Shown here one piece after another: positions 9,120 to 39,722 of a stretch of 64,000 nt of DNA. Both the position numbers and the translations under genes were made by a program. The notes beneath the pieces were generated by a model. That model had not been told where the DNA came from. It made no database searches and saw only the letters and a list, made by a program, of their open reading frames with translations. Origin of the DNA: an uncultured Marinococcus sp. (GTDB taxonomy: Bacteria; Bacillota; Bacilli; Bacillales; Marinococcaceae); the NCBI RefSeq assembly GCF_947493875.1, contig NZ_CANLSU010000001.1, positions 372,001 through 436,000 of the forward strand, written 5' to 3'. Every line of letters begins with the position of its first letter. Within the stretch, counting starts at the first letter, position 1.

Positions 9120-9929
9120 CTAATCCTTTTGTTTTTCTTTTAGAAGCTGCTTAATATCGCTCAGCTCGCTCTCCATATGATCAAGCTGCTTCTGCAGCTT
9201 GTCTTCGCTTTCTTCAGCTTCCGCCTTTTCGACGTTACTGACAATGACGCCCACAAACAGGTTGAACACCACAAACGTTCCGACGAGCACAAAGGAGACA
9301 AAATAAATCCAGCTTAATGGATTGGTTTCAGCGATCGGCCGCATGACGGCGCTTGCCCATGACTCGAGGGTTACGACCTGAAACAGGGTCAGTAAGGACT
9401 GAAATATGTCCCCAAAATATTCAGGGGCCGTGTCGCGGTAAAGCATAGTGCCAATTACTGCGTACACGTAGAAAATGATGCTCATCAGAATCATAATGTT
9501 TCCTAGCGAAGGGATGGTGCGGAGCAAAGCATCCACGAGCCGCCGCAGAGAAGGAACAACGGTGATAGCCCGGAGGACCCGGAGAACCCGGAGAACCCGG
9601 AGCACGGTAATGAAAGCCGAGCCGGCAAAGATGTGCCCGGCTGCTACGATGAAGAAATCAAACCAGTTCCAGGGAGACTTAAAAAAATGATAGGAGGGAA
9701 AAACACCTAAAAACCGGATGATAACCTCGATGGTAAAAAGCCAGAGAAGTATGTAATTTAACAAAGAAAACGTGTTTTCATAGCGGCTGTACAGGGTTTC
9801 GGAGGTTTCAAGCCCTACCAGCAGCGCATTAAATAAAATCAGTGTCGTTACAACAGCAGTGAAAACCGGCTGATCCAAAATGACAGCTAAACGCTGCCGA
9901 AAACGGGTAAAGGTAGATATCTCGCTCAT
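9120..9929 (-). CDS. NaChBac-type voltage-gated sodium channel
   Basis: 269 residues with one six-helix domain, the size of NaChBac (274 aa). S1-S3 lie within residues 20-105. The S4 voltage sensor follows (about 107-131) with arginines at 111, 114, 117 and 120 at every third position. S5 covers about 140-163, and the pore loop has selectivity filter TLESWAS (187-193), the exact NaChBac filter that selects Na+. S6 covers about 206-232, followed by a heptad-like acidic coiled-coil tail (235-265) that assembles the tetramer. In alkaliphilic bacilli this channel supports Na+ re-entry for pH homeostasis, motility and chemotaxis. The ATG has AAAGGAG 7 nt upstream. Confidence 0.95.
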   Translation of the reverse strand: MSEISTFTRFRQRLAVILDQPVFTAVVTTLILFNALLVGLETSETLYSRYENTFSLLNYILLWLFTIEVIIRFLGVFPSYHFFKSPWNWFDFFIVAAGHIFAGSAFITVLRVLRVLRVLRAITVVPSLRRLVDALLRTIPSLGNIMILMSIIFYVYAVIGTMLYRDTAPEYFGDIFQSLLTLFQVVTLESWASAVMRPIAETNPLSWIYFVSFVLVGTFVVFNLFVGVIVSNVEKAEAEESEDKLQKQLDHMESELSDIKQLLKEKQKD

Positions 9930-19077: not shown

Positions 19078-19561
19078 AGCAATTTATCCAGGAAGCTTTG
19101 ATCCGGTTACGAACGGACATCTGGACATCATCGAACGGGCGTACAATGTATTTGACCATGTGGTGGTGGCAGTACTGCATAACCGGAAAAAAGAACCGTT
19201 CTTTTCCATTGATCAGCGGGTGAAGCTGATAGAAGAATCAGTCAAGCATATGCCCGGAGTGGAAGTGGATGCTTTTCACGGGCTTCTAGTGGATTATGTA
19301 AAAGAAATAAAAGCTGATACGATCGTAAGGGGACTCCGGGCGGTTTCTGATTTTGAATATGAAATGCAGGCAGCGTCAATAAACAGAAAACTCGAACCCG
19401 GCGTGGAAACGTTTTTTATGATGACAAATCACCAGTACTCTTATCTGAGCTCGAGTATTGTTAAAGAAGTAGCGGAATACGGAGCGGACGTATCCGGACT
19501 TGTGCCTGCGCACGTAGAAGACGCGCTTAGAGAACAGTTTGAGAAGAAAAACCGGGGATAA
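19067..19561 (+). CDS. coaD: Phosphopantetheine adenylyltransferase
   Basis: Penultimate CoA step: transfers AMP from ATP to 4'-phosphopantetheine. 164 residues. Visible are the nucleotidyltransferase motif [19 protein letters not shown] (TxGH-type), [14 protein letters not shown] and the ATP-binding [11 protein letters not shown] near the C-terminus. It overlaps rsmD. The ylbJ and ylbK genes that follow it in B. subtilis are missing. Confidence 0.97.
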
Positions 19562-19634
19562 AAGTGCGATTCATTGTAATTCCCATTCAGTCCTTCGTGT
19601 GATGAAGAATAATTGTTTATAAAGGATGAAGATC

Positions 19635-22655: not shown

Positions 22656-22829
22656 ATGGCAGTACCTTTTAGACGTACTTCTAAGACCCGTAAACGTATG
22701 CGCAGAGCTCATCAAAAAGTAGCAGTACCAGGTATGGTAGAATGCGAACAATGCGGAGAGCAGAAACTATCTCACCGTGTGTGCAGAAATTGCGGTTCTT
22801 ACAAAGGCGAAACAGTTGTAGAAAAGTAA
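22656..22829 (+). CDS. rpmF: 50S ribosomal protein L32
   Basis: 57 residues: [20 protein letters not shown], then a zinc-ribbon CxxC...CxxC ([18 protein letters not shown]). This is the zinc-binding (C+) L32 form. Four cysteines are intact. The start ATG has AAGGAGGTGG 5 nt upstream. It is cotranscribed with ylbN and ends in a strong terminator. Confidence 0.98.
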
Positions 22830-22831
22830 TA

Positions 22832-22870
22832 AAAAAAGCAGGGTGCCAAAGATGGCACCCTGCTTTTTTT
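22832..22870 (+). terminator. rpmF terminator
   Basis: The perfect 16-bp stem AAAAAAGCAGGGTGCC (22832-22847) / GGCACCCTGCTTTTTT (22854-22869) has a 6-nt loop and a T-run. Confidence 0.95.
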
Positions 22871-22894
22871 ATATAGATGCTAAAGAGCAGGATA

Positions 22895-23413
22895 TTACGA
22901 TTCGGTATCAGAAAGAGGCGGTTCTGCAGTTAATTCTTCTGCTTTTTGCGGCTGTACCCCTTTTGGATACCATACGTATGGGTTTTCACCACGGTCTCTG
23001 ACCGGGTTATATTCTGCGGGCTCAAAACCCATTTTCAGCCAGAAATCATCCGAACGCTGGCGCGCGTTTGTTTTCACTGGCAGTTCAAAGCTTTTTGCGT
23101 AGTTGACAAGCTCTTCTCCGAAGCCGCGACCCCGGTAAGGCTCGAGTACTTCGAGCTTCCAAAGCTCAAGGTAATCCTGCGGGGGATCGAAGAAACGGTC
23201 ATATTTGCCGGTGATTGTATATAAACACATACGTGCAACCAGACGGTCTCCAAAATAGATGCCGTAAAATGGGGAACGGCTGTCGTTTTCCATAATGTTT
23301 TCTTCGAGCTCCTCCTGCATGGAAAGCTCCTGAGCGCCAACTTCTTTGAAGTTTTGAAATTCTTCTAGTGTCTTGTAGTTTATGAGTAAGGGTACAACTT
23401 CTATTCCACTCAT
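22895..23413 (-). CDS. ylbP: YlbP-like GNAT acetyltransferase
   Basis: 172 residues. The core GNAT domain has LVARMCLYTI, LWKLEVLEPYRGRGFGEELVNYAKS (acetyl-CoA binding R/Q-x-x-G-x-G/A motif) and DDFWLKMGFEPAEYNP. It corresponds in position and sequence to B. subtilis YlbP. The substrate is unknown. ylbO (rsfA), which separates rpmF and ylbP in B. subtilis, is absent. The start ATG lies 8 nt after GGAGG. The first six residues of the longest frame are therefore excluded. Confidence 0.88.
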   Translation of the reverse strand: MSGIEVVPLLINYKTLEEFQNFKEVGAQELSMQEELEENIMENDSRSPFYGIYFGDRLVARMCLYTITGKYDRFFDPPQDYLELWKLEVLEPYRGRGFGEELVNYAKSFELPVKTNARQRSDDFWLKMGFEPAEYNPVRDRGENPYVWYPKGVQPQKAEELTAEPPLSDTES

Positions 23414-27674: not shown

Positions 27675-27727
27675 AGTTAACTGCGGCCCCGGCACATGTA
27701 AAAACTCAGGTGGTGAACGTTCTCAGC

Positions 27728-30016
27728 ATGAAGAAATTGAAAAGCACGAAAGTACGGGCGCTTTTACTGGTCATTGCTGTAGCTGTTTTCTTTCTCGTTT
27801 TCACCGGCCGTATGGTGTACATCCAGGTGGGAAAAACAGTAGAGGGAAATGACCTTGCAAGTATGGCAGACTCCAGATATACCACGACTGAAACCGTTGA
27901 TGCGAAACGAGGGACTATTTTTGACAAGCAGGGAGAACCTCTGGCAGAACAGGTGCCCTCTTATTCTGTGTATGCCGTCCTCGATGAATCCTACGATGAT
28001 CATGTGAAAAACCCGGACAGGGTAGCGAGAGAGCTTGGGCCACTGATCGGTATGGAAAATGCAGAGCTGAAAGACATGCTCGAACGCGATCAGTACCAGG
28101 TGGAGCTTGGTTCCGGAAGCAAGTATTTAACGCTGTCTGAACGAGAAGAAATCGAGCAGCTTGATCTTGCAGGTATACATTTTCGTGAGGAGCCGACGCG
28201 CTACTATCCGAACCAGACGTTTGCAAGCCACGTGCTTGGCTATATGAGTCGGGATATGTCAGAAGCTCACATGGGACTTGAAGCCGGATTGAATGAAGAA
28301 TTGACCGGAAAAGACGGAACAAGAACAGAGTCTGAAGAGAATGCTCTTCTTGACGAAGATGAGACCACAACGAACACAGCTGAAGACGGCAAAGACGTTT
28401 ACCTGACTTTGGATGGAAATATTCAAAGCGTGCTTGAACAGTCGATGTCAGAGGTGGAAGAAAGCTACAGCCCAAACAAAATTATGGGCATTGTAGCAGA
28501 CGCAGACAGTGGGGAAATACTCGGTATGAGCAACCGCCCGAGCTTTAACCCGAATGAATATGAAGAAATCGAAAACTACACCAACTATGCTGTCTCCGAT
28601 CAGTTTGAGCCCGGGTCGACCATGAAAATCTTTACGCTGGCAGCTGCGATTGATAAAGGAGTCTTTGAAGGCAAGGATACTTATGAGTCCGGCACATATA
28701 ACGTTTCCGGGGAAACAATCCGGGATCATAACAACGGGGAAGGTTGGGGAGAAATCACTTATAATGAAGGTCTCCGGCGTTCTTCGAACGTAGCATTTAT
28801 GAGGATTGCGCTTGAAATTCTGCCTGAAGGAGCCCTGTTTAATTACCTGGAAAAATTCGGTTTCGGCCAGGAAACCGGAATTGATCTGCCGAATGAAGCG
28901 GACGGCGCATTAGCGGAAGAGACACCATTAAACGTTGGTATAACAGCCTTCGGGCAGGCTTCTACAGTTACTCCTATTCAGATGATTCAGGGGGCCACCG
29001 CTATAGCCAATGATGGTAAAATGATGCAGCCCTATGTGATCGACCACATTGAAAACCCAAACAACAACGAAACAACGTATGAATCCGAACCCAACGTAGC
29101 AGGCAAGCCGATCAGCAAGAAGGCAGCTGAAAAAACTAGGAAAAAGCTTCAAACCGTCATTGAGGGAGAGCATGGCACTGGGGCGCCGTACCAGATTGAT
29201 GGAGTAGAGGTTGCGGGAAAAACAGGCACAGCTCAAATCTCTGATCCCGAGGGGGGAGGCTACTTGAGCGGGGAAAACCAGAATATCTTTTCTTTCATCG
29301 GCATGGCGCCGGTGGACGATCCGGAAATTATTGTCTATGTTGTCGTGGACCGTCCGGAGCTTGAGCCGACAGAAACAGGCTCGGATGCCGTGAGCGCTAT
29401 TTTTAATCCGGTAATGCAGCAGAGCCTTTCATACATGAATCTTACCCCTTCGGATGTTGAGGATACAAAAGCCTATGAAGAATCAGGTATCGAATTTGAA
29501 GACTATACCGGGAAATCGGTGAATAAAGCTGAAAATGCCGCTGAGAACGCGGGACTGCAGCCGGTGGTAATCGGCAGCGGCAGCCAGGTGGAAAATCAGA
29601 TTCCTACAAATTCGGAACGGCTGATCGTAGGTGAAAAAGTAATCTTCCTTACAAATGGACAAAAAAGTATTCCTGATGTCAGCGGATGGTCACTCCGGGA
29701 AATCCAGCGCCTTGAAGCGCTGCTTGAAATCGATATAGACACAAGCGGTTCCGGCTATGTCAGCTCCCAGTCGGTGGAAGCCGGCACAGCCGTTAGTGCT
29801 GCCGGCAATATGGAAGTCGAGCTGGTTCCGCCGGACGAACTGGAGGACGCTCAGGCAGAGCAGACAGAAGCAGAAGAAGCTGACGCGGAAAATGAAAACC
29901 GGGAACAACAGCCACAAGAGGCTGAAACAGAGGAACCTGAAGCTCAGGAAAATGATACAGAGGAAAGCTCCGGTGAAGAGCAGCCAGCAGAAAGTGAAGC
30001 ACCGGTAGAAAATTAA
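27728..30016 (+). CDS. pbpB: Penicillin-binding protein 2B, septal transpeptidase
   Basis: 762 residues from the chosen ATG. It has a short cytoplasmic part and a membrane helix (about 12-30), then the PBP dimerisation domain and the transpeptidase domain with STMK (Ser297), SSN (352-354) and KTGT (498-501). Two PASTA domains follow (about 585-643 and 645-701). Two PASTA repeats mark PBP2B rather than SpoVD. It cross-links septal peptidoglycan in the divisome. The last 60 residues are an acidic tail (about 26 D/E and one R), absent from B. subtilis PBP2B. GTG codons at 27710 and 27713 are alternative starts, because AGGTGG lies close to them and rather far from the ATG. spoVD, normally next, is missing. 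Confidence 0.95.
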   Translation: MKKLKSTKVRALLLVIAVAVFFLVFTGRMVYIQVGKTVEGNDLASMADSRYTTTETVDAKRGTIFDKQGEPLAEQVPSYSVYAVLDESYDDHVKNPDRVARELGPLIGMENAELKDMLERDQYQVELGSGSKYLTLSEREEIEQLDLAGIHFREEPTRYYPNQTFASHVLGYMSRDMSEAHMGLEAGLNEELTGKDGTRTESEENALLDEDETTTNTAEDGKDVYLTLDGNIQSVLEQSMSEVEESYSPNKIMGIVADADSGEILGMSNRPSFNPNEYEEIENYTNYAVSDQFEPGSTMKIFTLAAAIDKGVFEGKDTYESGTYNVSGETIRDHNNGEGWGEITYNEGLRRSSNVAFMRIALEILPEGALFNYLEKFGFGQETGIDLPNEADGALAEETPLNVGITAFGQASTVTPIQMIQGATAIANDGKMMQPYVIDHIENPNNNETTYESEPNVAGKPISKKAAEKTRKKLQTVIEGEHGTGAPYQIDGVEVAGKTGTAQISDPEGGGYLSGENQNIFSFIGMAPVDDPEIIVYVVVDRPELEPTETGSDAVSAIFNPVMQQSLSYMNLTPSDVEDTKAYEESGIEFEDYTGKSVNKAENAAENAGLQPVVIGSGSQVENQIPTNSERLIVGEKVIFLTNGQKSIPDVSGWSLREIQRLEALLEIDIDTSGSGYVSSQSVEAGTAVSAAGNMEVELVPPDELEDAQAEQTEAEEADAENENREQQPQEAETEEPEAQENDTEESSGEEQPAESEAPVEN

Positions 30017-30069
30017 TGACGATTGTCCCATGACATGTTTTATCGTTCACATTAGAATGAGTGGGGTGT

Positions 30070-30098
30070 ACGCAGAGAACGAACGCAGTTCTCTGCGT
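30070..30098 (+). terminator. Perfect dyad between pbpB and murE
   Basis: ACGCAGAGAAC (30070-30080) and GTTCTCTGCGT (30088-30098) form an 11-bp perfect stem with a 7-nt loop. The following bases lack a T-run, so it may be a weak terminator, a pause site or a processing element. A TATAAT at 30145-30150 could be the -10 of a murE promoter, but no -35 is seen. Confidence 0.5.
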
Positions 30099-30191
30099 GT
30101 ATATTCGTTTAAAAACAGCCGGGAAAGACGAAACACGTTTTTTCTATAATTAGTGGTAAACACTTGCTCCGGATAGAAAAGAGGCACGGAA

Positions 30192-31661
30192 ATGAAATAT
30201 ATTACAGACATTATTCCAAGTATAATGGTTCGGGTTGAGCGCGAAGACAAAGAAATCGAGAGCTTACATATGGATTCCAGGGGAGTAATCCCAAATGGTC
30301 TGTTTTTTTGTATTGAAGGGACCAAAGTAGACGGCCATGATTTTGCCGCCGACGCAGTAAGTAATGGGGCGGCGGCTGTGATAGCTGAACGGCATGTGGA
30401 CGTCGAAGCTCCTGTGTGGCTAGTGAAGGATACGCAGAAGGTAATGGCCTACGCGGCGGATCATTTCTACGGGCACCCTACAGAGGATGTCCGCATAATC
30501 GGTATTACCGGGACAAATGGTAAAACCACGACCAGTCATTTAGTTGAATCTATCCTAAACGAAGAGCAGACTAAGACAGGGTTAATCGGCACTATGTATG
30601 CAAAAATCGGAAGTGAATCCGTAGAGACAAATAACACTACGCCTGAATCCCTGGAGCTGCAGCAGCTGTTTGCGAAGATGCGGGAGGATAAAGTGGAAAG
30701 CTGTGTTATGGAGGTTTCTTCTCATGCGCTGCAGATGGGGCGCGTGCGGGGAGTCCAGTTCCGGACAGCAGTTTTTACAAACCTGTCACAGGATCATCTG
30801 GATTATCACGGCTCGATGGAAAGCTACAGAAACGCTAAAAGCCTCCTGTTTTCACAGCTGGGCAACAGCTTTGCGGGAGAGCTGAGCACTGCGGTATTAA
30901 ATGGAGACGACGAAGCCTCCGATTACTTTCAGGCAGTGACCACAGCACCGGTGCTCACATACGGGATCAGTGACCGCAACGATATTTACGCTGAAAATAT
31001 AAAAACTTCCGGTGGCAAAACATCGTTTACGCTGAACACCCCTTGGGGGAGCACGGAGGTGGAGTATCCACTGCTTGGAAGGTTTAATGTATACAACGCG
31101 CTCGCAGCCATCGCTGCATGTATTGCAGAAAACGTTTCTGTCACAAGCATCGTTGATGGCCTGAAGCATGCCCCGGTTGTAAGCGGCAGATTTGAAGCAG
31201 TGGAAGCAGGGCAGAAAAGCACCATTGTCGTTGATTATGCCCATACCCCGGGCGGACTGGAAAATGTTGCTCAAACAGCCTTTGATATGACTGAGGGGCG
31301 TCTTTATACCGTGATAGGGTGCGGCGGAGACCGGGACAAAGAAAAAAGGCCAAAGATGGCAGCTGCAGCAGAAAAGTTCAGTGACCTGGTCATTCTTACC
31401 TCCGACAATCCGCGCTCGGAAGACCCGGCTGAAATATTGGAGCAGATGGAAGCAGGGTTTGCCGGTACAGAATACGAAATCATTGAGGACCGCCGCAAGG
31501 CGATCGAACGTGCCGTATTCCTTGCCGGGGACGGGGACACAGTGCTTGTTGCAGGCAAAGGCCACGAAACGTACCAGGTAATAGGGGATCAAACGTTGGA
31601 ATTTGATGACCGCGAAGTAGCAAAAGAAGCGGTCAGAAAGAAAAATAATAAACAGTCTTAG
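30192..31661 (+). CDS. murE: UDP-MurNAc-L-Ala-D-Glu:meso-diaminopimelate ligase
   Basis: 489 residues. The ATP-binding P-loop GTNGKTT is at 107-113. The substrate-selecting motif DNPR is at 405-408, diagnostic of ligases that add meso-diaminopimelate rather than lysine, so the cell wall is predicted to be A1-gamma type. Other conserved parts are VMEVSSHAL and DYAHTP. It acts in the cytoplasm after MurD. Confidence 0.97.
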   Translation: MKYITDIIPSIMVRVEREDKEIESLHMDSRGVIPNGLFFCIEGTKVDGHDFAADAVSNGAAAVIAERHVDVEAPVWLVKDTQKVMAYAADHFYGHPTEDVRIIGITGTNGKTTTSHLVESILNEEQTKTGLIGTMYAKIGSESVETNNTTPESLELQQLFAKMREDKVESCVMEVSSHALQMGRVRGVQFRTAVFTNLSQDHLDYHGSMESYRNAKSLLFSQLGNSFAGELSTAVLNGDDEASDYFQAVTTAPVLTYGISDRNDIYAENIKTSGGKTSFTLNTPWGSTEVEYPLLGRFNVYNALAAIAACIAENVSVTSIVDGLKHAPVVSGRFEAVEAGQKSTIVVDYAHTPGGLENVAQTAFDMTEGRLYTVIGCGGDRDKEKRPKMAAAAEKFSDLVILTSDNPRSEDPAEILEQMEAGFAGTEYEIIEDRRKAIERAVFLAGDGDTVLVAGKGHETYQVIGDQTLEFDDREVAKEAVRKKNNKQS

Positions 31662-31688
31662 CGCTTCATACTGAAAGGAGCTCCCTCG

Positions 31689-32660
31689 ATGGGTTTTGCA
31701 GCTTTAATAGTAACAATAGTTTCATTTATTATATGTGCGGTTTCAGCACCGGTCCTTATTCCAGCTTTAAAGCGGCTGAAATTTGGCCAGAGTATCCGGG
31801 AAACGGGGCCGGAATCGCATCAGAAAAAAGGCGGCACGCCAACAATGGGAGGCGTAATGATTATTGCCGGCCTTTTGATTACTGCTCTCATCGTGCTGCC
31901 GCTTTTTGTCGGCTACACAACAGAAATTTGGCTGCTCCTGCTTGTAACTGTAGGCTTTGGAATACTTGGATTTTTGGATGATTTCATTAAAATTGTCATG
32001 AAACGGAACCTCGGCCTTACAAGTATTCAGAAGCTGATTGGCCAGGTGGTTATTGCATTTATCTTTTTTATTGTTTTGTATAACGGCACGTTTGATACAA
32101 GTGTAGCTGTGCCGGGAACTGAATGGTCACTCGAATTTGGATGGGCGTATTTTTTTCTAATCATTATTATGCTCGTCGGTGCTTCCAACGCAGTGAATTT
32201 GACGGACGGGCTGGATGGACTGCTGGCCGGCACGGGAACGATGGCGTTTGCCGCTTATGCCCTGGTCGCTTTTTCGCTTGGGTATATGGACGTTGGGCTG
32301 TTTGCGTTTGCAGTTGTGGGCAGCCTGCTCGGCTTTTTAATCTTCAATAAATACCCGGCAAAGATTTTCATGGGGGACACCGGTTCCCTCGCGCTCGGGG
32401 GCGCGATTGCTGCTGTAGCTATTTTAACCAAAACCGAGCTGACGCTGATTGTGATCGGTCTCGTATTTGTTCTGGAGACGCTGAGTGTCATTATCCAGGT
32501 GATTTCGTACAAATTAAGAGGGAAAAAGGTATTTAAAATGAGCCCGGTTCATCACCATTTTGAACTGTCAGGCTGGTCGGAGTGGCAGGTTGTTACTGCC
32601 TTTTGGGTGGTGGGCGCTGCTGCCGGGCTGTCCGGGGTCGCATTAGAGGTGTTTTTATAA
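31689..32660 (+). CDS. mraY: Phospho-MurNAc-pentapeptide transferase MraY
   Basis: 323 residues, ten membrane helices. It transfers phospho-MurNAc-pentapeptide to undecaprenyl phosphate to give lipid I. Motifs: KKGGTPTMGGVMI, the catalytic DD in LGFLDDFIK, NAVNLTDGLDGL, IFMGDTGSLALGG and the histidine-rich MSPVHHHFELSGWSE. The ATG has GGAGCTCC upstream. The stop overlaps murD by one base. Confidence 0.98.
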   Translation: MGFAALIVTIVSFIICAVSAPVLIPALKRLKFGQSIRETGPESHQKKGGTPTMGGVMIIAGLLITALIVLPLFVGYTTEIWLLLLVTVGFGILGFLDDFIKIVMKRNLGLTSIQKLIGQVVIAFIFFIVLYNGTFDTSVAVPGTEWSLEFGWAYFFLIIIMLVGASNAVNLTDGLDGLLAGTGTMAFAAYALVAFSLGYMDVGLFAFAVVGSLLGFLIFNKYPAKIFMGDTGSLALGGAIAAVAILTKTELTLIVIGLVFVLETLSVIIQVISYKLRGKKVFKMSPVHHHFELSGWSEWQVVTAFWVVGAAAGLSGVALEVFL

Positions 32661-34015
32661 TGGATCGCTTAAAAGAATATAAGGGAAAAAAAGTGCTTGT
32701 CGTAGGTCTGGCTAAAAGTGGTTTAGCGGCGGCGAAGCTGCTGCATCGCTCTGGGGCGGAGGTGACTGTGAATGACGGAGCAGAGGCGGAAAAAGGAGAT
32801 GCGAAGGTTCAGGAGCTTGAGAATCTCGGCATTCGGCTGATTACTGGAAGCCACCCAGTCTCCCTGCTCGAAGAACCGTTTTCAGTCATTGTTAAAAATC
32901 CGGGTATTCCCTATCACCATCCTTTTATCAAAAAAGCTCTGGAAAAACAATTCAATATTATTACAGAAATTGAACTTGCGGCAGAGCTGTGTGAAGGGAC
33001 GATGATGGCTATTACCGGCTCGAACGGAAAAACGACCACTACATCATTGATCCAGGCCATTTTCAAAAAGGACCACAGAGAAGCTGCTGTAGCTGGTAAT
33101 ATTGGAAGTGTGGCATGTGAAGTAGCTCCCCGGATAAAAAAAGACCAGATTATGGTTACAGAGGTTTCCAGCTTTCAGCTGAAAGGGACACAAAAGTTCC
33201 GCCCGAAGGTTGGGGTGCTGCTGAATCTTTTCGATGCCCATCTGGATTACCATGGATCGAGGAATGACTACGAGCAGTCAAAAGCAAAGCTATTTCAGAA
33301 CATGACCGCAGAAGATACTGCAGTCTACAACTATGATCAAAAAGAGGTAAAACGAATTGCCGAAAGCTCGGACGCGGTACTTGTGCCTTTTTCCAAAGAG
33401 ACTGTTTGTGAAAACGGCGCCTATATGAAGGACGGTATGTTTTATTATAAGACTGAGCCGGTGATGGCTGTGGAGCGTGCCTCTCTTCCGGGGGCGCATA
33501 ACAAGGAAAATATGCTGGCAGCGATTGCTGCTGCTAAAGTACTTGGCGCCTCCAACCAGGCCATCGATTCGGCCTTATCCGACTTCCACGGCATCGAGCA
33601 CCGGCTTCAATTCAGCGGGATTGTGAATGGACGCAAAATCTACAATGACTCGAAAGCGACGAACATGCTTTCCACCCAAAAGGCGATCGAAGCTTTTGAA
33701 GAGCCGGTGGTGCTTTTGGCCGGTGGCCTTGACCGCGGCAACACCTTCGATGATTTAATTGAATCTTTCCGGAAAATCAAGGCGCTCGTTGCTTACGGCG
33801 AGACGCGGGACAAACTTGCGGCCTCTGCACAGGAAGCAGGAGTAACTGAAATCCACCGCACAGAATTTCTGGCAGATGCTGTAGACAAAAGCTTTCAGCT
33901 TTCTGAAAGCGGGGACGTGTTGCTGCTCTCACCTGCCTGCGCAAGCTGGGACCAGTTCCGGACGTTTGAAGAGCGGGGCCGGACGTTTATGGAATATGTA
34001 GAAAAGTATAAATGA
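32660..34015 (+). CDS. murD: UDP-MurNAc-L-alanine:D-glutamate ligase
   Basis: 451 residues. It has an N-terminal Rossmann-like domain (KVLVVGLAKSGLAAAKLL), the P-loop MAITGSNGKTTTTSLI, LLNLFDAHLDYHGS, and C-terminal IYNDSKATNMLSTQKAI and LLSPACASWDQFRTFEERG. It adds D-glutamate to UDP-MurNAc-Ala. The start is at TAATG overlapping mraY. spoVE and murG, which follow murD in B. subtilis, are missing. Confidence 0.97.
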   Translation: MDRLKEYKGKKVLVVGLAKSGLAAAKLLHRSGAEVTVNDGAEAEKGDAKVQELENLGIRLITGSHPVSLLEEPFSVIVKNPGIPYHHPFIKKALEKQFNIITEIELAAELCEGTMMAITGSNGKTTTTSLIQAIFKKDHREAAVAGNIGSVACEVAPRIKKDQIMVTEVSSFQLKGTQKFRPKVGVLLNLFDAHLDYHGSRNDYEQSKAKLFQNMTAEDTAVYNYDQKEVKRIAESSDAVLVPFSKETVCENGAYMKDGMFYYKTEPVMAVERASLPGAHNKENMLAAIAAAKVLGASNQAIDSALSDFHGIEHRLQFSGIVNGRKIYNDSKATNMLSTQKAIEAFEEPVVLLAGGLDRGNTFDDLIESFRKIKALVAYGETRDKLAASAQEAGVTEIHRTEFLADAVDKSFQLSESGDVLLLSPACASWDQFRTFEERGRTFMEYVEKYK

Positions 34016-34018
34016 CAT

Positions 34019-34070
34019 GGAGTGCAGGTTTGCTCCACTCCTGAAGCTACCTTTAAAAGGTGGTTTCAGG
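34019..34070 (+). promoter_or_regulatory. Tandem hairpins between murD and murB
   Basis: A first stem GGAGTG / CACTCC (34019-34041) slightly overlaps a second one at 34040-34070. The second has a 14-bp continuous stem with two G-T pairs and a three-base loop (CCTGAAGCTACCTT / AAGGTGGTTTCAGG). There is no T-run. It may be a partial terminator or RNA stability element, and sits where spoVE and murG are absent. Confidence 0.6.
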
Positions 34071-34183
34071 AATGGATCGAAATGATACATTCTTTAAAAT
34101 AAGCCTATATAAAAACAAACACAAAAAAGTAATGGAATCCAGGGAGCCCGAAATAAACAAATGAATAAACAGGAGGGGACTGT

Positions 34184-35104
34184 ATGGGACAAGAGGCGGA
34201 ATCAGCACGGAATTTCGAAGACTTTGGCAAGGTATTGAAGGATGAGCCACTGGCAAAGCACACAACCTGGAAAATCGGCGGACCGGCGGACTGGCTGGTT
34301 GAGCCTACAAGCGTGGAGGAACTGGCGAACGCAATGGATTGGATTCGTGAAGAAAATCTTCCATGGCGTGCCATTGGACGCGGCTCGAATCTGCTGGTGG
34401 ATGATGATGGAATTGAAGGCGTGGTAATAAAATTTGGTACGAAGCTTGCCAATTTGGAAAACGATAACGGTATAGTCACCGTGGAATCGGGCTATCCACT
34501 AGTCCGGCTTGCTACGATTTTAAGCCGGGATGGATACGGAGGCATGGAGTTCGCCGGGGGCATCCCGGGGAGCGTCGGCGGGGCAGTATTTATGAATGCA
34601 GGCGCCCACGGCTCTGATATGTCGAAGGTACTGATAGAAGCGTTAATTTTATTTCCGGACGGAACAATGGAATGGATTCCCAACGAAGAAATGGGATTTG
34701 CCTACCGTACCTCGAGGCTCCAGTCGGACAAGGGTATATGTGTAGCCGCCAGGCTCAAGCTTGAGCAGGGAGAAAAAGATGTCATCTTTAAAGAAATGCA
34801 GGAATACAAAGAGTACAGAAGAGAAACGCAGCCGTGGGCTCATCCATGTGCCGGAAGCGTGTTTCGGAATCCCCTGCCTGACCATGCCGGTGAACTTATA
34901 GAGAACATCGGATTAAAGGGACACGTAATCGGCGGTGCGCAGATATCAGAGCTTCATGCAAACTTTATTGTTAACACAGGGGAAGCCAAAGCATCTGATG
35001 TGCTTGCATTAATTGAAAAAGCCCGCTCCTCCGTGAAAGAAGCTTACGGTATTGAGCTTGAAACCGAAGTGGAAATCGTAAACAGAAGATCAGCTGACAG
35101 CTGA
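34184..35104 (+). CDS. murB: UDP-N-acetylenolpyruvoylglucosamine reductase
   Basis: 306 residues, type IIa MurB (NADPH- and FAD-dependent reduction to UDP-MurNAc). Motifs: HTTWKIGGPADWLVEP, AIGRGSNLLV, FAGGIPGSVGGAVFMNAGAHG, the catalytic serine in HPCAGSVFRNP, and GAQISELHANFIVN. The ATG has AGGAGGGG upstream. Confidence 0.97.
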   Translation: MGQEAESARNFEDFGKVLKDEPLAKHTTWKIGGPADWLVEPTSVEELANAMDWIREENLPWRAIGRGSNLLVDDDGIEGVVIKFGTKLANLENDNGIVTVESGYPLVRLATILSRDGYGGMEFAGGIPGSVGGAVFMNAGAHGSDMSKVLIEALILFPDGTMEWIPNEEMGFAYRTSRLQSDKGICVAARLKLEQGEKDVIFKEMQEYKEYRRETQPWAHPCAGSVFRNPLPDHAGELIENIGLKGHVIGGAQISELHANFIVNTGEAKASDVLALIEKARSSVKEAYGIELETEVEIVNRRSADS

Positions 35105-35133
35105 TAAGCGGGGAAATAGAGGAGGACTGCGGT

Positions 35134-36033
35134 TTGAGGAAGCCAAATGATGGCAAACTGGTCTCGCTCGAAGAGCATCACCCCAGTTTAAAGGAGCAGC
35201 GCCGGCAAAAATCACGGCGCCGGCTGTTTATCTATCTGGCTGTATTTTTTGTATTGATCGGACTGGTTATTTATTTTCAATCCCCGTTAAGTCATATCCG
35301 CAGTATTGAAACGAGCGGATCCCAATTTACAGATAAACAGGTTATTAAAGAAGACAGCGGGGCCCAGATTGGAACAAATATCTGGGAAATGGACAGAAAG
35401 GCGATTAAGAATAATGTAGAAAAGCTGCCGGCAATTGAAAAAGCAGAAGTAACAAGGTCGTGGCCGGCGACGGTAAACATTAAGGTTACTGAGTATGAAA
35501 AAGTTGCTTATACACAGATGGAAGGCGCTTACGCCCCGGTGCTTGAAAACGGTTATGCGCTGACAGATGATGTGAACAGCGAACTTCCGGCTGATGCACC
35601 GCTTCTGCAGAATTTTGAAAACGAGGAAAGACTTGAAGCGTTCGCAGAGGAGCTGGGCAAACTGGGGGAAGGGGTGACCAACCGGATTTCAGAAGTGTAT
35701 TTCGAGCCTTCTGAAAGCGAAGAGGATAACATCACTCTTTACATGAACGACGGTCTTGAGGTCCGCAGTTCTGTTTCCGGATTCTCGGAGTATATGAGCT
35801 CATACCCCTCCATTGCGAGAAATATTGATGCTGGGCAAAACGGGGTGCTTTATATGATGAGAGCTCCATACTTTGAAGCAGCAGAAACGCAGGAAAACTC
35901 CGGAGATGAAAATGAAGGGACACAGCAGATGCCTGAGGAAAGCTTCATTGAAGGAAATGACACTCCTGAAGAGGCAGAAAACGGAGCTTCCGGCACAGAA
36001 GAAAATGATAGTGCAGATGGAGCGGGGCAATAA
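35134..36033 (+). CDS. divIB: Cell division protein DivIB (FtsQ)
   Basis: 299 residues. It has a basic cytoplasmic N-terminus (1-32), one membrane helix (about 33-50; LFIYLAVFFVLIGLVIYF), a POTRA domain (about 52-122, SHIRSIETSGSQFTDKQVIKEDSG) and a beta domain. The last 50 or so residues form an acidic, low-complexity extracellular tail. It stabilises FtsL and DivIC at the septum. The start is TTG with AGAGGAGG 8 nt upstream. ylxW, ylxX and sbp, next in B. subtilis, are absent. Confidence 0.93.
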   Translation: MRKPNDGKLVSLEEHHPSLKEQRRQKSRRRLFIYLAVFFVLIGLVIYFQSPLSHIRSIETSGSQFTDKQVIKEDSGAQIGTNIWEMDRKAIKNNVEKLPAIEKAEVTRSWPATVNIKVTEYEKVAYTQMEGAYAPVLENGYALTDDVNSELPADAPLLQNFENEERLEAFAEELGKLGEGVTNRISEVYFEPSESEEDNITLYMNDGLEVRSSVSGFSEYMSSYPSIARNIDAGQNGVLYMMRAPYFEAAETQENSGDENEGTQQMPEESFIEGNDTPEEAENGASGTEENDSADGAGQ

Positions 36034-36244
36034 AAGAATGAATATTGTTTGAAAATTGCCTTTTCCATTGAAGATAGTTGTTGTAGACTGAAAAGAAGGC
36101 GTATTTTTCTTAACCCAGATAAAAATACTGCCATATATTATTAATGGAAGCGCAACCGGGATAATTCTGGTGCGTATGGAATTATAAAAGGTACAATAGC
36201 TATAAAATTGAAACGAAAATAGATCTATAAGGGGGTGCCCAACC
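36034..36244 (+). promoter_or_regulatory. divIB-ftsA gap with AT-rich hairpin
   Basis: 211 bp without a gene. It holds an 8-bp AT-rich stem GTATTTTT (36101-36108) / AAAAATAC (36121-36128) and a possible -10 TACAAT (36192-36197) before ftsA. No clear -35 was found. This gap replaces ylxW-ylxX-sbp of B. subtilis. Confidence 0.35.
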
Positions 36245-37573
36245 TTGAACAGTGAAAATTTGTATGTCAGTCTTGATGTCGGCACATCGTCTGTACGAGC
36301 GATTATCGGAGATATGAGCGGTGGTGCCTTGAAAATTATCGGAGTCGGCCGGGCGCCGTCTATCGGCATGAGAAAAGGTGCAATCGTCGATATCGATGAA
36401 ACGGTCAAAGCAATTAAAGAAGCCGTGGATCAGGCGGAACGAATGGTTGATTTAGAAGTAAAGCAGGTTATTGTAGGAATTAACGGTAATCAGGTGGAAA
36501 TGCGGGCATGTAATGGAATAGTGGCCGTCTCAAGCACCGATCGTGAAATTCAGGACGAGGACGTGGAAAGAGTTATCGACGCGGCACATGTGATGAGCAT
36601 TCCGCCCGACAGAGAAATTATTGATATTATTCCGGCCCAGTTTATTGTGGACGGGATGGATGGAATTAAAGATCCGCGCGGCATGCTCGGCACTCGTCTC
36701 GAAATGGAAGGAACTATTATCACAGGAGCTAAAACCGCTTTACATAACCTACTACGCTGTGTGGAGCGAGCAGGACTGGAAATTGCAGATATTGTGCTTC
36801 AGCCGTTGGCTTCAGGGAGCGTAGCCGTTTCAAAGGACGAGCGTTCTCTTGGGGTGGCACTGATTGATATTGGCGGCGGCTCGACGACGGTCTCTGTATT
36901 TCAGGAAGGCCAACTGCAGACAATGTCCTTTCTCCCAATTGGCGGGAGCCACATCTCAAACGATATTTCTGTCGGCATCAGAACGACCGCTGAAGAAGCA
37001 GAGCGTCTGAAGCTTGAGCATGGCCATGCCTTTATTGATGATGCTTCTGATGATTTGTCCTTTTCTATTCAGACGCTTGGAAACAATGATCAGAAAAAAT
37101 TCACGCAGCTCGAACTTGCAGAAATTATTGAACCGAGAATGGAAGAAATTCTTACATTAGTTCAGCAGGAAATCAACCGCATGGGCTATTATGATCTTCC
37201 GGGAGGTTATGTATTAACCGGAGGAGCGGTCATGATGCCGGGAACGCTCGAGCTTGCCCAGGACATATGGAAGCAGCATGTCCGCCTTGCAATGCCGGAC
37301 TATATCGGCGTGCGGGAGCCTACGTATACAGCCAGTATCGGCCTGATTGAATTTGCATATAAAAGCATGAAGGTTCATAGTGGAGAGGAATCCGTTGTAG
37401 CAGCGGGACGCTCTGAGAAATATGCAGAATCAGACCGCCCGGCTTCAGCAGGAGAAGCGAATTACCGCAATGGTTCAAGCACGCGCCAGCAAAACCGGAC
37501 GAAGGAAAAAGATCCGGAGGAGCCTGGATTTAAAGAGCGTATGCGAAGCGTATTTAAATCTTTCTTTGAATAA
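36245..37573 (+). CDS. ftsA: Cell division protein FtsA
   Basis: 442 residues, actin-like ATPase that tethers FtsZ to the membrane. Motifs: phosphate 1 LDVGTSSVRAIIGD, the 1C domain (about 85-165), phosphate 2 VALIDIGGGSTTVSVF, and adenosine loop GGYVLTGGAVMMPG. A linker ends in a C-terminal amphipathic helix (GFKERMRSVFKSFFE) that binds membrane. Start TTG with GGGGGTG upstream. Confidence 0.97.
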   Translation: MNSENLYVSLDVGTSSVRAIIGDMSGGALKIIGVGRAPSIGMRKGAIVDIDETVKAIKEAVDQAERMVDLEVKQVIVGINGNQVEMRACNGIVAVSSTDREIQDEDVERVIDAAHVMSIPPDREIIDIIPAQFIVDGMDGIKDPRGMLGTRLEMEGTIITGAKTALHNLLRCVERAGLEIADIVLQPLASGSVAVSKDERSLGVALIDIGGGSTTVSVFQEGQLQTMSFLPIGGSHISNDISVGIRTTAEEAERLKLEHGHAFIDDASDDLSFSIQTLGNNDQKKFTQLELAEIIEPRMEEILTLVQQEINRMGYYDLPGGYVLTGGAVMMPGTLELAQDIWKQHVRLAMPDYIGVREPTYTASIGLIEFAYKSMKVHSGEESVVAAGRSEKYAESDRPASAGEANYRNGSSTRQQNRTKEKDPEEPGFKERMRSVFKSFFE

Positions 37574-37611
37574 GTAATGAAGGATAAAACGACTATATAG
37601 GAGGACCACAT

Positions 37612-38793
37612 ATGTTGGAATTTGAAATGGATATGGACCAGCTAGCCCAGATTAAAGTCATCGGTGTCGGCGGGGGCGGTTCGAACGCTGTGAACCGTAT
37701 GATTGAGAACGGTTTACAGGGAGTAGAATTTATTGCGGTAAACACAGACGCCCAGGCGTTAAAATTATCAGAAGCAGAAACAAAGCTTCAATTAGGCGGA
37801 AAGCTGACAAGAGGCCTGGGTGCCGGAGCGAACCCGGAAATTGGTAAAAAAGCTGCTGAAGAAAGCAAAGAGCAGCTCGAAGAAGCGCTCACCGGTGCCG
37901 ATATGGTATTTATCACAGCTGGCATGGGCGGAGGCACAGGCACAGGTGCTGCTCCGGTTATTGCTGAAGTAGCCAAAGAAATTGGGGCCCTGACCGTAGG
38001 CGTCGTTACGCGCCCATTTACATTTGAAGGTAAAAAGCGTGCGGTGCAGTCCTCCAACGGTATTTCCTCTTTAAAGGAAAAAGTGGATACGCTGATTGTT
38101 ATTCCAAACGACCGTCTGCTTGAAATTGTGGACAAAAGCACGCCGATGCTTGAAGCGTTCCGTGAAGCAGACAATGTCCTTCGCCAGGGCGTCCAGGGCA
38201 TTAGTGATCTGATCGCGGTACCGGGACTTATCAACCTTGACTTTGCCGACGTAAAAACAATCATGAGTGAAAAAGGCTCTGCGTTAATGGGCATCGGTAT
38301 ATCAACCGGAGAAAACCGTGCAGTGGAAGCGGCGAAAAAAGCCATCTCGAGCCCGCTTCTTGAAACGTCCGTGGAAGGCGCTCAGGGTGTGCTGATGAAC
38401 ATTACCGGCGGCTCCAACCTGAGTCTGTTTGAAGTGCACGAAGCAGCAGAGATTGTATCTGAAGCTTCGGACACGGATGTTAATATGATCTTCGGCTCGG
38501 TTATTAACGAAAACCTGAAGGACGAAATCGTAGTTACGGTTATTGCGACAGGGTTTCAGGACAGTGAAGACCAGCGGAGCGCGCAGGGAACACGTGGCGG
38601 AGGCCGTCAGACTGTTTCCCGGCAGCAGCCGACAAGGCAGCAGGCTCCGCAGCAGCCCCAGCAGTCTGCACCCCAGCAGGACTGGAAGGAAGAGCCTGTT
38701 TCTGAAAATGAACCGTCCAGAGATAGAGATGGACAGGAAGAAGACGAAGGACTCGATATTCCAACGTTCCTGCGCAACCGGCGCCGCCGTTAG
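37612..38793 (+). CDS. ftsZ: Cell division protein FtsZ
   Basis: 393 residues, tubulin-like GTPase forming the Z ring. Motifs: [17 protein letters not shown], the tubulin signature [10 protein letters not shown], and the T7 loop [16 protein letters not shown]-rich intrinsically disordered linker (about 320-378) is followed by the conserved C-terminal peptide [12 protein letters not shown] that binds FtsA, SepF and EzrA. GGAGG lies 7 nt upstream. It is followed by a terminator. In B. subtilis bpr, spoIIGA, sigE and sigG follow, but here pgeF does. Confidence 0.98.
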
Positions 38794-38814
38794 GCGCGGG
38801 CAGGTGATAGAAGA

Positions 38815-38847
38815 AAAAAGCGGGCCGGATACGGCCCGCTTTTCTTC
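38815..38847 (+). terminator. ftsZ terminator
   Basis: AAAAGCGGGCC (38817-38827) pairs with GGCCCGCTTTT (38833-38843), with A-run before and T-rich sequence after. Confidence 0.9.
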
Positions 38848-38912
38848 GCTGATGCTGAAGTATTTCCGTTTAAGCCATATAACTGATCAACAAGCAGAAA
38901 GGTCGTGATGGC

Positions 38913-39722
38913 ATGAAGCCTGAGCCGTTTCACCTTTTAACAAACGGTATTCTCGAGCTGCAAATGAACAGCAAAGCAGCTGCCGCCGGCTTTACTACAA
39001 GAGTAAACGGCGAGGGGAATCCGCCTTACGAGAGCCGCAATACTGCCCTTCATGTAGGTGAAGACAGGAATGTAACGATAAACAACCGGCTGATCACCGC
39101 CGAACATATCGGCCGTCCTCTTTCCACCTGGACTGCTGAAGAGCAGGTTCACGGCAGCCGTATTGTAGAAGTCAGCCGCAGTGATGCCGGCAAAGGGAGT
39201 GAGCAGAGGGAAACCTCTGTGGCAGAAGCCGATGGCATGATTACCGAGTCGAAGGAAGTGACGCTTGTCAGTTTTTATGCTGATTGTGTTCCTCTGTTCT
39301 TTTATGCAGAAAGCGCTGCGATGGCAGGGTTAGCTCACGCAGGATGGAAAGGAACCGCCGCGGACATTGGGGCTGAAATGATTCGTGCTTTTGCAGATAA
39401 GGGGGTCCCGCCTGAACAAATATATGTGGCGATCGGACCGGCTATATCCGGAGCTAATTATGAAGTGGATGAAACGGTCCTGTCAGCATTTAAGAGTCAA
39501 CTTGATTTTTCCGATGGGGAGCCTTGGGTCGAAAAGGCAGATGGGCGTTACGCGCTTGATTTAAAGACAGCCAACAGACTGCTGCTTGAACAGGCAGGAA
39601 TCCCCCCTGAACGTATTGCTGTCAGCGGTTACTGTACTTATGCCGAAGAGGATCTGTTTTTCTCCCACCGTCGTGATAACGGGAAAACTGGACGAATGAT
39701 GAGTTATATCTATATTATATAG
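38913..39722 (+). CDS. pgeF: Peptidoglycan editing factor PgeF (YlmD)
   Basis: 269 residues of the DUF152/laccase-domain family. EEQVHGSRI, the catalytic Cys-His pair region SFYADCVPLFF and GLAHAGWKGTAADI, and FFSHRRDNGKTGRM are conserved. In E. coli PgeF removes wrongly incorporated L-Ser from UDP-MurNAc peptides. Bacillus YlmD has been reported to act on adenosine or polyphenols in vitro. It begins the ylmD-ylmE-sepF-ylmG-ylmH-divIVA group. Confidence 0.9.
   Translation: MKPEPFHLLTNGILELQMNSKAAAAGFTTRVNGEGNPPYESRNTALHVGEDRNVTINNRLITAEHIGRPLSTWTAEEQVHGSRIVEVSRSDAGKGSEQRETSVAEADGMITESKEVTLVSFYADCVPLFFYAESAAMAGLAHAGWKGTAADIGAEMIRAFADKGVPPEQIYVAIGPAISGANYEVDETVLSAFKSQLDFSDGEPWVEKADGRYALDLKTANRLLLEQAGIPPERIAVSGYCTYAEEDLFFSHRRDNGKTGRMMSYIYII

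Follow-up and report, generated by a model that had tools for sequence, protein, structure and literature searches.

Several Bacilli that do not form spores are known to carry Spo0A, among them Bacillus selenitireducens, Exiguobacterium and Macrococcus caseolyticus (PMC3533761, in the sections covered). Its presence in non-spore-formers could reflect either a recent loss of sporulation or another role, a choice left open in the covered part of PMC6136694, where the Spo0 pathway is also given as the only reported role of Spo0F and Spo0B. Marinococcus is described as a non-spore-forming genus (PMC9781867, in the part covered). No report linking it to sporulation genes or to Spo0A was found, the same part of PMC9781867 included, in a literature search to which most subscription journals were closed. 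The stretch of DNA analysed here, 64,000 nt from an uncultured, salt-loving Marinococcus sp. (the window), contains a division gene cluster in which spoVD, spoVE and spoIIGA-sigE-sigG have no place. The sequences make it likely that sporulation was lost long ago and that the Spo0F-Spo0B-Spo0A phosphorelay was kept in use for AbrB transition-state control. The narrower proposition, that after the end of sporulation selection preserved the complete relay across the deep divergence of Marinococcus from its sister genus, and that the relay now serves this control only, is about evenly balanced.

Twenty-nine genomes of the family as defined by GTDB were compared, five of them Marinococcus; G000 is the genome of the window. 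The initial annotation had placed spo0A among the sporulation genes to be looked for. Instead of being missing, it is present: the Spo0A_C domain occurs in 29/29 genomes, including the five Marinococcus and G027, which have no SpoIIE. The Marinococcus protein is a full equivalog (TIGR02875, 332 bits against a cut-off of 200) with a receiver and a Spo0A_C domain, both of which align with solved Spo0A structures, the C-terminal domain covering almost the whole of 1lq1 with the TTPSRVERALRHAI stretch included. The receiver keeps its Asp, Thr and Lys, presumably the catalytic residues here as in Spo0F, and this copy looks functional. Spo0B of G000 carries the motif HSRHDWMN, matches 1f51 (E = 2e-25) and scores 68 bits with PF14682. 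Its gene adjoins obgE, and the open reading frame (ORF) on the other side is neither rplU nor rpmA (one of three markers adjoining). G027 and each of the five Marinococcus genomes encode a Spo0B-sized protein with SPOB_a; the SPOB_a model found nothing in 2 of the 29 genomes (G005 and G006). Spo0F, a single receiver, was found in each of the three Marinococcus genomes searched. In G000 its gene lies beside what is presumably fbaA and near what is presumably pyrG, with Asp, Thr and Lys in place. Neighbourhoods of the fbaA/pyrG and obgE types have been used to call Spo0F and Spo0B (PMC6136694, in the part covered).

The relay genes are under purifying selection. Ratios of nonsynonymous to synonymous substitution (dN/dS; Nei-Gojobori, pairwise between Marinococcus species, with dS near or above 1 in some pairs) were 0.035-0.065 for spo0A (three species pairs), 0.092 and 0.134 for spo0B, the second value taking in a few codons past a frame shift in G012, and 0.132 and 0.100 for spo0F. 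Among control genes, ahrC had the lowest ratio, about 0, and fbaA the highest, 0.16, a value that over-extended starts have probably raised; divIB and ylmD of the window gave 0.10-0.17.

One AbrB-type gene is kept in each of the four Marinococcus genomes examined for it. Upstream of it, in 4/4, lies TGTCGAA-N3-TGACGAA, two perfect tandem Spo0A boxes that start 45 and 35 bp before the abrB start codon, just past a promoter-like TTGACG/TATTGT pair. TGNCGAA is the Spo0A consensus given for the abrB promoter of B. subtilis, and altering it there led to higher AbrB activity (PMC13343845, in the part covered). The first box stands in the same setting in G027 (48 bp before the start) and in the spore-forming G028 (54 bp). 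Such a tandem arose in 5 of 200,000 first-order simulated upstream regions, and a scan of 154 kb of G000 gave no other instance; the window holds one 0A box (TTGTCGAA) against 2.67 expected. A second TGTCGAA pair, spaced by 8 bp and on the opposite strand, lies upstream of abrB at 283 and 291 bp in G000 (L143, about 1937-1945; likewise in L141, L142 and L144); it precedes a divergent frame that matches no Pfam family. G027 has a similar pair in which one box carries a mismatch.

The ancestor of Marinococcus would have been a spore-former that lost the programme, its housekeeping neighbours closing up. This loss would have been dispersed, taking the compartment sigma factors and the engulfment and cortex genes, and the initiation phosphorelay was retained, held by purifying selection. 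Spo0F, Spo0B and Spo0A most likely still work as a phosphate relay. Its main surviving output would be phosphorylated Spo0A bound to the two 0A boxes at abrB, and stationary-phase genes would then be freed from repression by AbrB once growth stops. Phosphotransfer, binding at abrB, the AbrB regulon and the existence of upstream kinases are all presumed in this scheme.

Beyond the window, SigG scored over its cut-off in 22 of the 29 genomes, the misses being the five Marinococcus, G027 and G010. In G010 a sigG match of 403 bits (G010:C23:29787-30422) is partial with two internal stops, a possible pseudogene or draft error. Among the sigma matches listed, those of 274-294 bits, taken to be SigF-type, come from 23/29 genomes and from none of the five Marinococcus or G027; SpoIIE is likewise over cut-off in 23/29, those six showing weak PP2C matches only. 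The initial annotation had called for sigE, sigG, spoVE and spoIIE to be sought in the rest of the genome. SpoIIE is absent from G000, and no SigG-, SigF- or SigE-type factor is among the matches listed for it, SigE being covered through the SigG model alone. Three sigma matches were counted in G000. The two listed, of 133 and 128 bits, are taken for SigB (with PP2C matches beside it) and SigA; the third, under about 62 bits, could conceivably be a strongly diverged SigE or SigK. SpoIIID was not found in G000, the one genome searched for it. Among nine genomes examined for SEDS proteins, the five Marinococcus and G027 have two each, as against three in G007, three in G020 and four in G028; the two are taken for FtsW and RodA, which leaves no SpoVE in Marinococcus.

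Two further losses were read from position, with the ORFs around recN/spo0A and efp/yqhY named provisionally by place. Marinococcus has no spoIVB in the recN-spo0A interval, which in G028 holds an ORF of 426 residues. Nor does it have a spoIIIA operon in the interval from efp to a conserved ORF of 127 residues next to yqhY; that place holds seven listed ORFs in G028 and a transporter plus a small ORF in G027. The absences are dispersed, in keeping with the earlier view of several separate losses rather than one deletion, and the non-sporulating lineage then proposed agrees with both the missing factors and the recorded description of the genus (PMC9781867, in the part covered). The 127-residue protein itself (L123:1792-2175, minus strand) has no Pfam or NCBIfam match; its identity is 77% to the counterpart in G027 and 75% to that in G028, and in G028 it directly follows the spoIIIA-like ORFs. 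The efp-yqhY place of Marinococcus also has no accC. A link between accBC loss and spoIIIA loss was considered and rejected, accC also being far from spo0A in G028, G007 and G020.

In a tree of seven proteins from 22 taxa, Marinococcus and G027 are grouped with an ultrafast bootstrap of 95. Placing Marinococcus beside the spore-formers with G027 outside is rejected by the approximately unbiased (AU) test (p-AU 0.0003). One loss common to every asporogenous lineage in the panel, Alkalicoccus included, is strongly rejected by both the AU and the Shimodaira-Hasegawa (SH) tests (p-AU 2e-79); at least two losses of sporulation have therefore occurred in the panel. Marinococcus and G027 probably share one loss, which would therefore be old.

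Several observations weigh against an old loss with a working relay. The SH test does not reject Marinococcus beside the spore-formers (p-SH 0.278), G027 beside the spore-formers is not rejected either (p-AU 0.156), and both branches are long. Marinococcus Spo0F has drifted, with 42% identity to B. subtilis Spo0F versus 59% in G027 and 70% in G028; Spo0A_C scores 124-127 bits in Marinococcus versus 154-157 in spore-formers; and dN/dS of the relay genes is higher than that of recN, ahrC, bcd and obgE. In G012, spo0B (L129, G012:C13) has a one-base insertion relative to G000 that shifts the frame after about residue 127, either a sequencing error or the start of decay. At abrB, G027 and G028 have only a degenerate version of the second box. 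Within Marinococcus the boxes do not stand out, the entire promoter block being conserved; agreement inside the genus therefore carries little weight, and that between genera counts for more. Upstream of the relay genes spo0A, spo0F and spo0B there are only scattered one-mismatch 0A boxes, none conserved in Marinococcus, and the autoregulatory loop therefore seems gone; the spore-forming G028 has a 0A box ahead of spo0A. No kinase was identified for the relay, no genome search for kinases having been made. Spo0F was sought in three Marinococcus genomes only, and the Spo0F and Spo0B neighbourhoods were read in three.

Some of these points would suit a recent loss, with the phosphorelay a remnant yet to decay: spo0B is frame-shifted in one of the three Marinococcus sequences compared, and divergence of Spo0F and Spo0A has outpaced that seen in spore-formers. 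However, dN/dS of all three relay genes is well under 1, Spo0A and a Spo0B-sized SPOB_a protein persist in 5/5 Marinococcus genomes and in the distant G027, and the abrB operator is perfect in 4/4. In addition, no remnant was found of sigG, sigF or spoIIE, nor of any gene sought in the three junctions of the division cluster. A recent loss is accordingly improbable. Retention of the relay might also be expected if Marinococcus sporulated cryptically, through a rewired programme with unrelated sigma factors, and unseen spores are weak evidence of absence (PMC9781867, in the part covered). This is very hard to reconcile with the failure to find SpoIIE, SpoIIID, SpoVE or SigG- and SigF-type factors, and with the absence of spoIIIA and spoIVB from their places. 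Finally, the genes could be missing merely from a draft, G000 being in 34 contigs. But all five Marinococcus genomes give the same picture, including G015 with its 3 contigs. Completeness is 99-100%, and a single contig of 560 kb contains the junctions of the window, so that an assembly artefact has next to no probability. An old loss with the relay kept in use is preferred to all three.

Within the window the gene order, from ORF lists and tblastn, is mraZ-rsmH-ftsL-pbpB-murE-mraY-murD-murB-divIB-ftsA-ftsZ-ylmD-ylmE-sepF-ylmG-ylmH-divIVA-ileS. Names were given from sequence and position, some being checked with family models; in compared loci gene presence was scored by tblastn, since filtering of ORFs risked losing genes that overlap. 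The initial annotation had noted spoVD, spoVE and spoIIGA-sigE-sigG as absent with neighbours closed up, which holds at all three junctions. Permissive tblastn with Salibacterium (L004) SpoVE, MurG, SpoIIGA, SigE and SigG and a partial Alteribacillus (L008) SpoVD gave nothing there better than E = 0.12. The sole real match of these proteins across the window was SpoVD on pbpB. The best NCBIfam model of pbpB is indeed spoVD_pbp, but its 448 bits fall under the cut-off of 688, so pbpB is a relative of SpoVD and not SpoVD itself. In B. subtilis, presumably, ylbJ (and ylbK) lie between coaD and ylbL, and ylbO (rsfA) follows rpmF. Both had been noted as missing, and there is no room for either: coaD ends at 19561 and a ylbL-type gene, whose product has Lon_C and PDZ domains, starts at 19626, and rpmF (22656-22829) is closely followed by a minus-strand acetyltransferase gene at 22895.

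Table 1. Genes and closed junctions of the window (window coordinates)
Feature	Position	Strand	Remarks
coaD/ylbL-type junction	19562..19625		64 bp; ylbJ (and ylbK) place in B. subtilis
rpmF/acetyltransferase junction	22830..22894		65 bp; ylbO (rsfA) place in B. subtilis
pbpB (division transpeptidase, PBP2B type)	27710..30016	+	Left flank of missing spoVD; between ftsL and murE
pbpB/murE junction	30017..30191		175 bp; spoVD place in relatives; no remnant by permissive tblastn
murE	30192..31661	+	ORF list and tblastn
murD	32582..34015	+	Longest frame; true start probably further in
murD/murB junction	34016..34183		168 bp; spoVE and murG place in nearest spore-forming relatives; no remnant
murB	34184..35104	+	ORF list and tblastn
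ftsZ	37612..38793	+	ORF list and tblastn
ftsZ/ylmD junction	38794..38912		119 bp; spoIIGA-sigE-sigG place in relatives; no remnant
ylmD	38913..39722	+	PF02578, 243 bits

L001-L003, the three named loci of Marinococcus, share this arrangement. The FtsA encoded in the window shows 99-100% identity to that of three Marinococcus species and at most 64% to that of the other listed loci, except for a partial match of 70% in L008. Both sigE and sigG are found in 69 of the 75 named loci in which ftsZ and ylmE were both found; the six without them are L001-L003, L034 and L035 (Alkalicoccus), and L031, a metagenome-assembled genome (MAG) branching with L034. Alkalicoccus L034 and L035 also have a 404-residue ORF between murE and mraY. 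Elsewhere in the window, positions 9120-9929 (minus strand) hold an Ion_trans channel gene (162 bits), the size of its product presumably fitting a single-repeat bacterial voltage-gated channel.

At the murD/murB gap the absence of spoVE is upheld, but not the reading of the gap as a matter of spoVE only, since murG has gone from the junction with it; the nearest spore-forming relatives hold both there, Salibacterium having two ORFs between murD and murB. The sole Marinococcus MurG over cut-off (G000:C1:342758-343831; L104:8759-9835, plus strand) is of the NF009102 type (483 bits), which within the family occurs in the five Marinococcus only, and it is 29-35% identical to MurG of the other 24 family genomes. 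Of 348 genomes in the order, 225, including three Marinococcus, match it at E <= 1e-70; among the matches listed the highest identity outside the genus is 66%. The gene is either old or an import. The single 168-bp junction and this divergent MurG would fit one deletion of murG and spoVE, with the second MurG compensating. Against this, the 76 named loci with murD and divIB comprise 40 with spoVE and murG, 30 with spoVE only (rechecked), 3 with murG only and 3, the Marinococcus loci, with neither, and the likely sister G027 has lost spoVE and kept murG. One deletion is therefore rather unlikely, and two steps fit better because the genes have been lost separately elsewhere. Loss of murG as part of sporulation loss was also rejected as a rule, the two being separable in both directions; displacement of murG is common and not part of sporulation loss.

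That Marinococcus lacks spores was already known (PMC9781867, in the part covered), as was the occurrence of Spo0A in non-spore-formers (PMC3533761, PMC6136694 and PMC8706201, in the parts covered). What is added here is a decision relay that has survived the end of the sporulation programme; its operator at abrB can be read, which gives an unusually clear lead to function. Relay plus operator make an alternative role of Spo0A testable. Marinococcus offers a natural case in which both persist with every spore-building gene tested gone, so that the non-sporulation function could be studied without interference from sporulation. If correct, this would be a developmental switch outlasting its development.

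The species of PMC3533761 and Marinococcus alike keep Spo0A, and in both sigE, sigF, sigG, spoIIE, spoIIGA, spoIIIA and spoIVB are missing, in Marinococcus as far as tested. With a Spo0A of receiver and Spo0A_C domain and several essential genes lacking, Marinococcus belongs to category 3 of that study (asporogenous, Spo0A kept). It is not among the examples given there, and Spo0B, Spo0F and abrB operators of those species are not discussed in the sections covered. Exiguobacterium sp. Helios resembles Marinococcus in forming no spores and in having spo0A, and abrB is present in Helios too; its kept genes were linked to xerotolerance, and Spo0B and Spo0F are not in the covered parts of its table (PMC8706201). 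Alkalicoccus (L034, L035) and the related MAG L031 have lost the same sporulation genes from the division cluster, but unlike Marinococcus they keep murG, and their loss is independent (L034 and L031 in the tree). Unlike B. subtilis, Marinococcus has no SpoIIE or compartment sigma factors found and no conserved 0A boxes ahead of its spo0 genes. The relay nevertheless resembles that of B. subtilis in having spo0F beside fbaA, spo0B beside obgE and TGNCGAA boxes at abrB (PMC6136694 and PMC13343845, in the parts covered).

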